Part shown: positions 9,660 to 57,935 of the stretch, piece after piece
How positions within the stretch are numbered: position 1 is the stretch's first letter
How the letters are laid out: each line of letters begins with the position of its first letter
Assembly (NCBI GenBank): GCA_903813345.2
Contig: CAIIXF020000007.1
Span: 23,049,564 to 23,113,563 of the forward strand
DNA from: Owenia fusiformis
Taxonomy: Eukaryota > Annelida > Polychaeta > Sabellida > Oweniidae
Length of the DNA: 64,000 nt
Reading direction: 5' to 3'
Translations under genes and position numbers: made by a program
Notes under the pieces: generated by a model
Seen by the model: the letters and a program-made list of their open reading frames with translations, nothing else
Told to the model about the DNA's origin: nothing
Database searches by the model: none

Positions 9660-10340
9660 ACCTCCCTATTAACGCAGATGCGAGTAGGTACGGCATTTTC
9701 AACTACAGATATCTTCGGATTTGGGGATTATAGTTCAAAAAGCTTTGTCGTATATCTTAATTACATACATACCTATCGTTTGTGCAAATGAAACCCTATA
9801 TAAATGTTTAATAGAATCGCAGTGCGGCATTGAAAATAGCACCCCTGTGTAATCCAATGGGAAAGAACCCGGATGTAGACGAAGTTGTACCATACATGAG
9901 AGCCCTTCAAACGGGAGGCAACTAAACTGAACGAAATTAAACGTTATCGCGTATTGGTATATTAATTCACCATCAGGTGGCTCTTTCGGGTCAGATAGCA
10001 TGGTGTATATGGTAGAAAGTTCCCTTGACATCTGTTTTAGTAGTTCAATTTTCATATCACCCTTATGTATCTAATAGTTATGCAAATTAAAATATGTCAA
10101 GTAATGAAATGTTATCTGTCAAATACAACTTGTACAAGAAAAGATTACACTTTTTGTGATTTTGTAACATGGGGTCTATGGGAATCTCCCCGAACTAGAA
10201 GTCACATTTTCCCCAAAAAATAAATGTTGATAAACTATTTTCGAAACCATATTTCTAGATGTACATTTACATGTAGATTTCAAATATGACACCACTCTGA
10301 CTGAATTACTTTGAATATTTAATGACGTAAATCAAGATTA
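9660..10340 (+). repeat. Dispersed repeat family A, copy A1
   Basis: About 680 bp, matching 19500-19925 in inverted orientation and the pieces of 56465-60123 in direct orientation. It is the uninterrupted version of two insertion sites in copy A3: GTTAT at 10077-10081 and TA at 10196-10197. The minus-strand ORF of 106 codons (9735-10055) overlaps a frame partly kept in A2 (LPFE, LHPGSFPLDYTG), but I do not recognise it and it is likely non-functional. Confidence 0.7.
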
Positions 10341-42947: not shown

Positions 42948-43493
42948 TAATACACTTTTTGAATATCCCCGCGAACCGTTAATACTACATTGGGCCATCT
43001 AGATTATAAAAAACATAGATCGCCTTTTTAACATCAGTTCGTGACAGTTGGATATATAATATTTCAAAAAGAATGGAACTTCCCTCTATACGGGCAAAGC
43101 ATCTCTCGTTAAAGGCATTCCTTTGACATTTCTATCGATATCATTCTTCATACATGGCGTGAATAACTACTAGCTGTAACCCGGAGATGATAGTATTATT
43201 CTCTTCAAAGGTTCAGGTGAGTTACTTTTGTTCAGATAGCTAGTATAGTATTGAGCAATATATGATAAACTCAAAGGTCGTTGACATTGAGCTTGTATTC
43301 GCGAATGCAACTAATGCCCGTCGGCTATCGGTTTGACTTACTATTTCATTACCAACTCATTTAATTATAAATTGGCAGGTACTTTTTTATATTTAAATGA
43401 GTTTCCCATAAGCGAATGCAACTTTCGGCTGTCGGCTGTCTCCGGATTAACCTACTATTTTATGACAGAATCACTTAAATATGGATGGAATAG

Positions 43494-43860
43494 TTGTTGG
43501 ATTTACACTAGAGCCCTAAGACGTCTTGGGTAAAACGTTTTTGCGTTAAAAAGCTTTACAAATGTAATGTAAATCCAGATTTTCTCAAGACCTCTCGGCT
43601 AAGAGCGCTTAGCTAAAACGTTTTAGGACCCTAGTCATAGCCAAGACGTCTTAGCGTTAACACGTTTTACAAGCGAGTTGTTGGATTTACACTAGAGGCC
43701 CAAGACGTCTTGGCTAAAACGTTTTACAAGTGTAATGTAAATCCAGATTTTCTCAAGAGCTCTCGGCTAATAGTGCTTAGCTAAAACGTTTTAGGACCCT
43801 AGTCATAGCCAAGACGTCTTAGCGTCAAAACGTTTGCGTTGCGCCGAACTAAACATTTGA
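43494..43860 (+). repeat. Tandem duplication, ~185 bp unit, two copies
   Basis: Unit one starts at about 43493 and unit two at about 43678, each with GTTGGATTTACACTAGAG, then ACGTCTTGG, GTAATGTAAATCCAGATTTT and CCTAGTCATAGCCAAGACGT in the same order. Confidence 0.85.
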
Positions 43861-45150: not shown

Positions 45151-45279
45151 GTCTTGGAGAGTCGCGTGTAGTGTAAATAGGGCTAGTGGCAGGTTCTGTT
45201 CATATTTAATGAGTTGCCAATAAGATAGTAGGTTAAGCCGGTAGCCGACAGTCGAAAGTTGTATTCGCGAATACAAGCT

Positions 45280-45937
45280 ACAAGTAATAGGAAAGCTAAC
45301 ATTTGTTTATTTTCTCTTGGTTATATGCAAAATGATAACTTATAGTCTATGAATCCTGACGTATTCGAGCCACTGTATAACAGCTAATTCTTTTTGTGAA
45401 ACAACTTTATGTATTTGTTTAATTCAAAATGGAGACCCTAATTCCCGCGGATTTCATTTGAAAATCTAAAAAACACCGACGGATCTAAAACCCTTCCCGA
45501 GGCAGATAAGAACATTTATCTATACTGCTTCAAAACGATTCTAGAAAATAGTTGACAGACTCATGATCAAGAGAATCCGATTTCGCCATTTGAAAACCCG
45601 ACTCAAGTGTGGCATATTACAGAGTTCTACATGATATTCCACTCAGCGGTGCTTGAGTCCTTGTGTATGTAATTCCCCATACCATCTCCCATTTCTCAGT
45701 TTCTGGTAGGTGAAATCAGTTAAGTAGATATGGTGCGTTTGTGGGTATTTGGGTGGGAGCGCTGACTTGTTCCTGATTAGTCTGGGACGCCATAAAGTAA
45801 AACAGTCGAATCTATACCCCTCCTACGTTTGTTAATGTTGGACTTTTTTCAACAATTATAACCAGTCAGAATAGATGACAAAGATGAATTTATGAATCGC
45901 CCAAATTAAAACTTTTACTTGCCCTAATGCAAAATCG
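45280..45937. other. No gene seen
   Basis: AT-rich sequence without recognised repeats or coding frames. Confidence 0.5.
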
Positions 45938-56262: not shown

Positions 56263-56446
56263 AGCTTGTATTCGCGAATGCAACTAACGCCTGTCGGCTA
56301 CCGGATTAACCTCCTATTTTATGGGCAACTCATTTGAATATAAATGGAATAGTGCCAGGTACTATTCATATCTAAATGAGTTGGTCATAAAATAGTAAGT
56401 TAATCCGGTAGCCGCTAGCCGTTAGTTGCATTCACGAATGCAAGCT
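56263..56446. mobile_element. Foldback family K, copy 2, uninterrupted
   Basis: AGCTTGTATTCGCGAATGC and GCATTCACGAATGCAAGCT form the ends, CTATTTTATG and CATAAAATAG pair further in, and the loop is near 56355. It shows the empty target site for element L of copy 1. Confidence 0.85.
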
Positions 56447-56517
56447 CGGTTAATTTCCTATAATAATCTGTTTTAATGGTTCAATTTTCATATAACCCTT
56501 ATGTATGTAATAGTTAT

Positions 56518-57810
56518 CACGGTGTATAACCCAAACGCTCCTACATGCACGACGGAGCGTTACATTTACGCGGAAACGCTCCGGGGCGAAATAAAATGGC
56601 GGCTAATGAAGATTCTACTATGACCGTAAGTATTGTTTCTCTCGTTTCTCTTACATATCATATGTCATGGTGAAATATTATGTACCATTCGATGAACAAT
56701 ACCGTGAGCAAAGATCTTATTTATTCAACTTCTGGTGGTAAACTGTTATTTGCTTGATCAAAGCTCCGTAGTGTAGATCGAACGAATCTGAAGATGACGA
56801 TTTGACCACAAATTACGAATTAAACTAGTATTTCTATGAAAACGTTAATCTTTCTGTTTAAGTAGTATATCACAAACTCGTATATTCTCATTTCCTAAAA
56901 TCCCAGTCCAAATCCATTACTTGTTCTCGAGAAATCGCTTGTTTTCCTCGAAACGCTCCGTCGATTTAGACCACAATTTTAGAAACGCTCTTACCATTTT
57001 GTTTTGATATCATTTTCAGATTATTAGAGAAGAGTTCCGAATCGAATCTATTTCTCAAAAACGTGTTGTACTTGTTAGGCAAATTGAAACATCTGAACCT
57101 GGTGGTGCTAAACGTGCAACTAGCTGATTAAAGCCTATACATTAGATGATGTCATGCCTACATATGTGCTAAATCATAAAACTATAGAAAAAACGAAAAG
57201 TTATATGTGAATTAATCTTTCTTCTATTGATGCCAAGGGGTATAATAGATCTTTTCTTTCTCTTCCTGAAAAGGAAAGGCAAGCTATATATTTCCTTAAC
57301 TGATCTAGACTACCGGAGCGTTTCCAATTCACTGTGTTAACCAGATCGGAGCGTTTCTTGAATATGAGAATGTCATCATTTTTAAGACTGGATTTTCGGT
57401 CATCAAATCACTATTACGATAATGTATGGTGCGTTGAAGCATTGGGATTTGACTAAAATATACGTTGGTGTTCTAATCTTGGCTCAACTAATCACATGTA
57501 TCGACAAAAGGGGTTTTGACCGGTAGAATGACAAATACGTTTTTGAATTTTGATAACTATACTGCTTCGTACAGCTCTTCCTAATTGCTTCAAACGTCAA
57601 CAGTCAGCCACGTACAACATGAATATCACACCCATCGAATGGTATACTCGAAATATGTAACTCATACCTCTTATTCCCATTATTGGGGAAATTGTCAGAC
57701 GGCTCATCATTCCCGCCAGACAGTTTTCCTACTCCGGAGCGTTTCTTTGTTTAATTTCAGTAATGAAACGCTCCGTCGTGCATGTAGGAGCGTTTGGGTT
57801 ATACACCGTG
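56518..57810. mobile_element. Transib-like TIR element, 1293 bp, 5-bp target duplication
   Basis: Perfect 44-bp TIRs (56518-56561 and 57767-57810) begin with CACGGTG, one base from the RAG heptamer CACAGTG. GTTAT flanks both sides (56513-56517, 57811-57815), and A1 has this sequence once (10077-10081), confirming the duplication. Five-bp duplications and CAC-nRTG ends are the signature of Transib, relatives of RAG1. The TIR itself is a small hairpin (AACGCTCC...GGAGCGTT), and the decamer GGAGCGTTTC or its complement recurs at 56573, 56950, 57315, 57348, 57736 and 57765. No Transib transposase is seen; instead it carries an unidentified decayed coding region. Confidence 0.8.
56596..57456 (+). 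pseudogene. Decayed two-exon coding region inside the Transib-like element
   Basis: A short candidate first exon at 56596-56625 starts AAAATGGCGGC and stops at ACC before a consensus donor GTAAGT (56626). An acceptor-like TCATTTTCAG ends at 57019. The second exon reads 35 codons (IIREEFRIESISQKRVVLVR and onward) to TGA at 57122. A shifted frame then runs 57124-57456, 111 codons with only two internal TGA, including AYTLDDVMPTYVLNHKTIEK and SLPEKERQAIYFL, which is protein-like. In DNA this AT-rich far more stops would be expected. I do not recognise the protein. It could be a captured host exon pair, or the remains of a transposon-encoded protein. Confidence 0.4.
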
Positions 57811-57935
57811 GTTATGCAAATTAAAATATGTTATCTGTCCAATGCAAAAAGATGTTATCTGTCCAATACAAGAAAAGATATTTCACTTTTTTGTGATTTT
57901 GCAACATTGTTTCTATGGGGAATCAACCCAGACTA

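Follow-up and report, generated by a model that had tools for sequence, protein, structure and literature searches.

A new, recently active, non-autonomous DNA transposon family with Transib-like ends in Owenia fusiformis

The segment at positions 56518-57810 of the window (the whole 64,000-nt stretch of Owenia fusiformis DNA that was analysed) raises the question of what kind of mobile element it is, which type of enzyme moved it, and whether it holds the remains of a gene. A first-pass annotation had read it as a non-autonomous Transib with RSS-like ends carrying exons of a host or transposon protein. The borders of the element and its empty site are as follows:

56513-56517, no strand: left target-site duplication GTTAT
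56518-56566, + strand: left terminal inverted repeat (TIR), 49 nt, 48/49 to the right one, beginning CACGGTG
57762-57810, - strand: right terminal inverted repeat, ending CACCGTG
57811-57815, no strand: right target-site duplication GTTAT
10030-10197, + strand: empty site, a paralogous flanking repeat without the element, with a single GTTAT at 10077-10081

The element is 1293 bp long (56518-57810) and is framed on both sides by GTTAT, the duplication already described in the first-pass annotation. Its TIRs are 49 nt and 98% complementary, and their outer 44 nt are perfect, as had been reported for 44-bp repeats starting CACGGTG. The left TIR holds AAACGCTCC...GGAGCGTT, an inverted pair in itself, and the end pattern of the family is CACGGTGT[AT/CC]AACCC. 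When the two flanks were joined at one GTTAT, they aligned to 10030-10197 with 77.9% identity over 181 columns (E 2e-35), which bears out the paralogous empty site proposed at 10077-10081. Just left of the element lies a fold-back element (window 56300-56409; 46-nt arms, 85% complementary), whose relatives in the window were located by similarity search at 43287-43494 and 45199-45283.

Copies were counted in the 498-Mb genome by exact and near-exact matching. The young-type 24-mer end occurred 203 times forward and 201 times in reverse (404 exact ends; reversed control 0), the older end type CACGGTGTCCAACCC 85 and 88 times (173 exact ends; control 2 and 0), and an internal 26-mer, allowing 3 mismatches at most, 170 and 168 times (control 0); from these end and internal counts, about 200 young and at least 85 older elements were estimated. 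Near-full copies, defined as 1150-1400 bp, were found in 35 of 42 loci examined. These 35 copies were 96.9-99.0% identical to their majority consensus, with pairwise divergence of 0.15-5.3% (mean 3.3%). The window copy and copy L002 differed in 2 alignment columns and occupied different targets (GTTAT versus ATATT), and this near-identity indicates recent movement of the family. Mean divergence of 12 older copies was 15.6%, in a set that includes the rearranged copy L061, and the older and younger consensus sequences differed by 41 substitutions in 1292 positions. An older subfamily of 0.86 kb also exists, and internal deletions were seen in L005 (670 bp), L006 and L007. Both ends shifted together between subfamilies, from GTCCAACCC (older) to GTATAACCC (young), as if tracking an enzyme. 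The family is new, recently active and non-autonomous, with Transib-like ends. The TIR sequence did not occur in the literature searched, and by title or start of abstract nothing retrieved on Transib together with Owenia, annelid or nonautonomous, or subterminal or MITE pointed to this family (PMC9587614, PMC10294476, PMC3276498 and PMC9033116 included).

Target sites were examined in 61 copies with both ends, which are not all independent (see below). An exact 5-bp duplication was present in 50 of them and absent from 11; by age, it was present in 43/47 young and 7/14 old copies. Duplications of another length had been named beforehand as evidence against the initial reading, and no other perfect length was found among the 61 copies, save four chance 2-bp repeats inside the 5 bp. 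With 404 exact ends against none in the control and these duplications, the element is genuine, far beyond chance, and the family has inserted many times at different targets. At the 50 duplicated sites, the preceding base was C in 51% and the following base G in 51%, with the profile symmetric by construction, as sites were read both ways; the duplication itself was 80% A/T, giving a target preference of C|WWWWW|G. Copies L045 and L047 have identical flanks, inverted relative to each other, one side of which is also found at L044 and L014, and L061 and L078 have a flank in common; because of such shared flanks, some copies appear to have been amplified as part of a host repeat. The flank common wholly or partly to L044, L045, L047 and L014 is GGGTGTTAGC AAATG. 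About 200 young copies with clean 5-bp duplications imply that a transposase making a 5-bp stagger was active in the lineage not long ago.

A short motif recurs through the element at the following positions:

56533-56541, + strand: motif AAACGCTCC inside the left TIR
56574-56582, + strand: subterminal copy of AAACGCTCC, 56 bp in from the left end
56951-56959, + strand: left distal copy of AAACGCTCC, 433 bp in from the left end
56983-56991, + strand: left distal copy reading AAACGCTCT, 465 bp in from the left end
57315-57323, - strand: right distal copy, 487 bp in from the right end
57348-57356, - strand: right distal copy, 454 bp in from the right end
57736-57744, - strand: subterminal copy, 66 bp in from the right end
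57766-57774 (+ strand) and 57787-57795 (- strand): motif copies within the right TIR

The 8-mer AAACGCTC occurred 9 times in the element, counting both strands, against a single occurrence in the remaining 62.7 kb of the window. The young consensus contains ten sites of the type (G/C)AAACGCTC(C/T), also written (G)AAACGCTCC, arranged near-symmetrically in the two halves. From the left end they lie at 14, 36, 55, 432 and 464 bp, and from the right end at 14, 36, 65, 453 and 486 bp; all face inward save the pair at 36. Beyond the TIR the two halves have only short matches in common, and a mirror fit as good was obtained in 0.2% of 200,000 random draws in which three sites per half were placed. 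The motif differs between subfamilies in one direction, with the order from older to younger taken from divergence: 6 motif positions deviate in the older consensus, 5 of which match the motif in the younger one, and of 84 matching positions 0 were lost (2.7 expected). The binomial chance of this gain is 6e-8, with the two TIR copies counted once, in a test conceived after the data had been seen. The older copies are heterogeneous at site 830 (full motif in 3/11 copies, CTGC in 2/11), and the change at that site is therefore weak. Among the young copies, 13/35 have GTAACGCTCC at the site at 37, the window copy included.

The sites look like putative transposase-binding sites that may have been improved before the young burst. 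A tentative extension, which we offer as a speculation, is that a Transib/RAG-type enzyme reads ten AAACGCTCC sites per element, in a near-symmetric array reaching about 490 bp into each half, in place of a heptamer and nonamer, with enzyme and sites co-evolving and the young burst starting in a lineage in which the sites had already converged on the consensus. The ordered and directionally changing array offers a ready-made test of binding-site improvement before a burst in a non-autonomous element.

On balance we favour, with somewhat more confidence than doubt, a young, abundant, non-autonomous TIR DNA transposon moved by a transposase made elsewhere, most likely of the Transib/RAG1 type. 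The Transib label was given because of the CAC ends, the 5-bp duplication and the C/G-flanked targets. CAC ends and 5-bp duplications are common to Transib, RAG-like transposons and RAG (PMC7204232, excerpt), and both traits are present here, the duplication in 50 of the 61 copies and the 5'-CAC...GTG terminus in each of the 404 exact 24-mer ends. Of the RSS-like ends claimed at the outset, the heptamer survived, CACGGTG matching CACAGTG at 6/7 positions with G instead of A as the fourth base, whereas the nonamer ACAAAAACC was absent at spacings of 11-13 and 22-24 (best 3/9). The Drosophila Transib elements hopper and transib2 make 5-bp duplications at the target CCANTGG, that is, C|CANTG|G (PMC3276498, excerpt). 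The present targets resemble this palindrome in the C before and the G after (51% each), yet their core is A/T-rich and not CANTG.

The element is like non-autonomous Transib elements in its CAC start, its 5-bp duplication and its lack of detectable coding capacity, and in part in its C/G-flanked palindromic target. It is unlike Transib in the fourth heptamer base, the target core and its ten dispersed motif copies, with no partner transposase found, and its length of about 1.29 kb exceeds the 75-564 bp tabulated for Helicoverpa Transib MITEs. It likely works like a Transib, and actual Transib membership is likely but unproven. Under this reading, a transposase encoded elsewhere, most likely of the Transib/RAG1 type, would bind the TIR and the spread array of AAACGCTCC sites, excise the element at CACGGTG, presumably by a cut-and-paste route, and insert it, with a 5-bp stagger, into AT-rich 5-mers bounded by C and G; the stagger would leave the 5-bp duplication. 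As it stands, this is an ordinary non-autonomous transposon and a new family of a known kind, whose motif array is worth a specialist's look. Should the enzyme be related to Transib or RAG, the family would be a handle for finding it in a lophotrochozoan; one Transib element is listed in a survey of molluscs (PMC10294476).

The transposase was sought in the same genome, and no Transib or RAG1-like transposase was found, in searches of uncertain sensitivity on an assembly with gaps or unread stretches (L055). The RAG1 Pfam profile gave 0 matches, in a search whose control gave no signal anywhere. A 49-aa piece of HzTransib, the solved Transib transposase, used as a genome query returned no Transib transposase. 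A 105-aa Transib-like query matched HzTransib (6pqn) at E 8e-39 and gave a single chance-level match in the genome (E 0.5; L074), which did not look like Transib. Two degenerate Transib motif patterns found no transposase; the second gave 9 places, of which the 4 that were read (L070-L073) were not Transib-like. Of the proposed non-autonomous Transib, the absence of a detectable gene, the 5-bp duplications and the CAC ends hold up, whereas a transposase to go with them was not found in the genome.

Alternatively, this could be a non-autonomous member of a different superfamily with 5-bp duplications (the hAT5 group, for example) or of one not yet described, a reading given perhaps a one-in-four chance. 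Wide subterminal motif arrays are commoner in hAT and CACTA elements than in Transib, and repeated short subterminal sites such as those found here are typical of hAT elements in general; the older ends CACGGTGTCCAACCC also faintly recall hAT ends. Ends of hAT elements typically obey YARNG, from which CACGG departs, having C at the third place where hAT has A/G. A 5-bp duplication is shared with the hAT families of the hAT5 group (PMC12730594, excerpt), and the failure to find a Transib transposase in the genome also speaks for such a source. Against it, the pairing of CAC...GTG ends with 5-bp duplications is characteristic of Transib and RAG (PMC7204232, excerpt), and the target motif of the hAT element hobo, GTNCGNAC, is unlike C|WWWWW|G (PMC3276498, excerpt). 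Members of the CMCT clade mostly have CA..TG ends and duplications of 2-5 bp (PMC12730594, excerpt), and for IS481EU the excerpt of PMC10045372 gives no 5-bp rule of the CAC/Transib kind. Descent from a RAG-like (RAG1L-RAG2L, ProtoRAG-type) transposon as a non-autonomous derivative is very unlikely. The CAC start and 5-bp duplication are shared, and an oyster and several deuterostomes are reported to carry non-autonomous RAGL elements (PMC7204232, excerpt), but the rest of the TIR is unlike the protostome RAGL consensus CACTWMCAAACKTYKBB of the same source (5/17 by eye, mostly the CAC), and the RAG1 profile, run with no positive control, was without a match in the genome.

The original proposal, a Transib whose cargo is decayed exons from a host or transposon protein, is improbable. 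The proposal concerned protein-like frames in this part of the interior:

57008-57303, + strand: decayed-exon-like stretches with open frames 57008-57127, 57124-57210 and 57211-57303, not above chance, with no family match and no codon signal

Some features are gene-like: an ATG at 56596 is followed 30 nt on by GTAAGT (56626-56631), TTTTCAG ending at 57019 precedes an open frame at 57020, and a 102-codon frame is open in the older consensus where the young one has stops. The sole statistical hint is the summed length of the top four frames, mildly high in the older consensus (matched by 31/1000 dinucleotide shuffles and larger than in 969/1000) and unremarkable in the young one (368/1000). The longest single frames, in contrast, lie within chance, 88 codons in the young consensus (as long in 404/1000 shuffles) and 102 codons in the older (216/1000); the annotation had itself held that a consensus interior without an open frame would count against it, and such is the case insofar as no single consensus frame exceeds chance. 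The profile search that it advised gave zero Pfam matches at E up to 10 for five peptides from the consensus frames, and a PDB search of these frames gave zero matches. Substitutions in the 102-codon frame were even over the three codon positions (92/95/90 in 11 older copies), and an AlphaFold model of six copies of the frame had a mean pLDDT of 37.9, uninformative on fold and without support for a gene. An in-frame TGA stands just before this frame in 14/15 older segments counted, and the frame is therefore unlikely to be joined directly to the upstream one. In searches for a source gene, element-like copies appeared to fill the best 150 scored matches, twice. A cargo gene was rejected on these grounds, and the interior is most likely non-coding.

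Copies were inspected singly for about 1/4 of young ends and 3/5 of old ends, and open-frame lists were made for L043-L063, L075-L078 and L016. Among the first 100 young ends listed, 14 were unpaired; of 12 inspected, 10 had a diverged partner within 1.4 kb, and of the other two unpaired ends, one, at C2:17915111, belongs to a full-length copy and the second is the last of the 100 ends. As candidates for an autonomous copy, 13 places from the best 150 matches and 6 from another best 150 were rejected as ordinary or damaged copies. Locus L016 was rejected as it keeps only the first 207 bp, with no other end within 11.6 kb, and L021 as its sequence passes into a tandem array inside the 4 kb examined; from 249 on, this array has units of about 165 bp (by eye). 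In L016 (101-2052; C2:29000766 on), a 524-aa minus-strand open frame, identified as a family-92 glycosyltransferase (Pfam E 6e-36), lies about 170 bp from where the 207-bp element piece stops, and the locus is read as a truncated element copy beside a host gene.

The longer copies L003, L004, L043, L056, L057, L058, L061 and L075-L078 were likewise rejected, their length being due to nested insertions or neighbours. L003 carries TGTCCCCAC...GTGGGGACA near element position 680, with repeated units of about 100 bp (by eye), and L004 carries a different insertion, TACCGTATT...AATACGGTA, with TA duplicated, near the same position. Nested in the element copy L061 (149-712) is a separate repeat of about 545 bp with ends TGGGCTTTCAA.../...TTGAAAGCCCA, for which at least 25 further matches were found at 91-94%. 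In L043 (element 973-977) and L057 (113-117), the nested insertions have borders repeating 5 bp of the element, and they are perhaps other families that also make 5-bp duplications.
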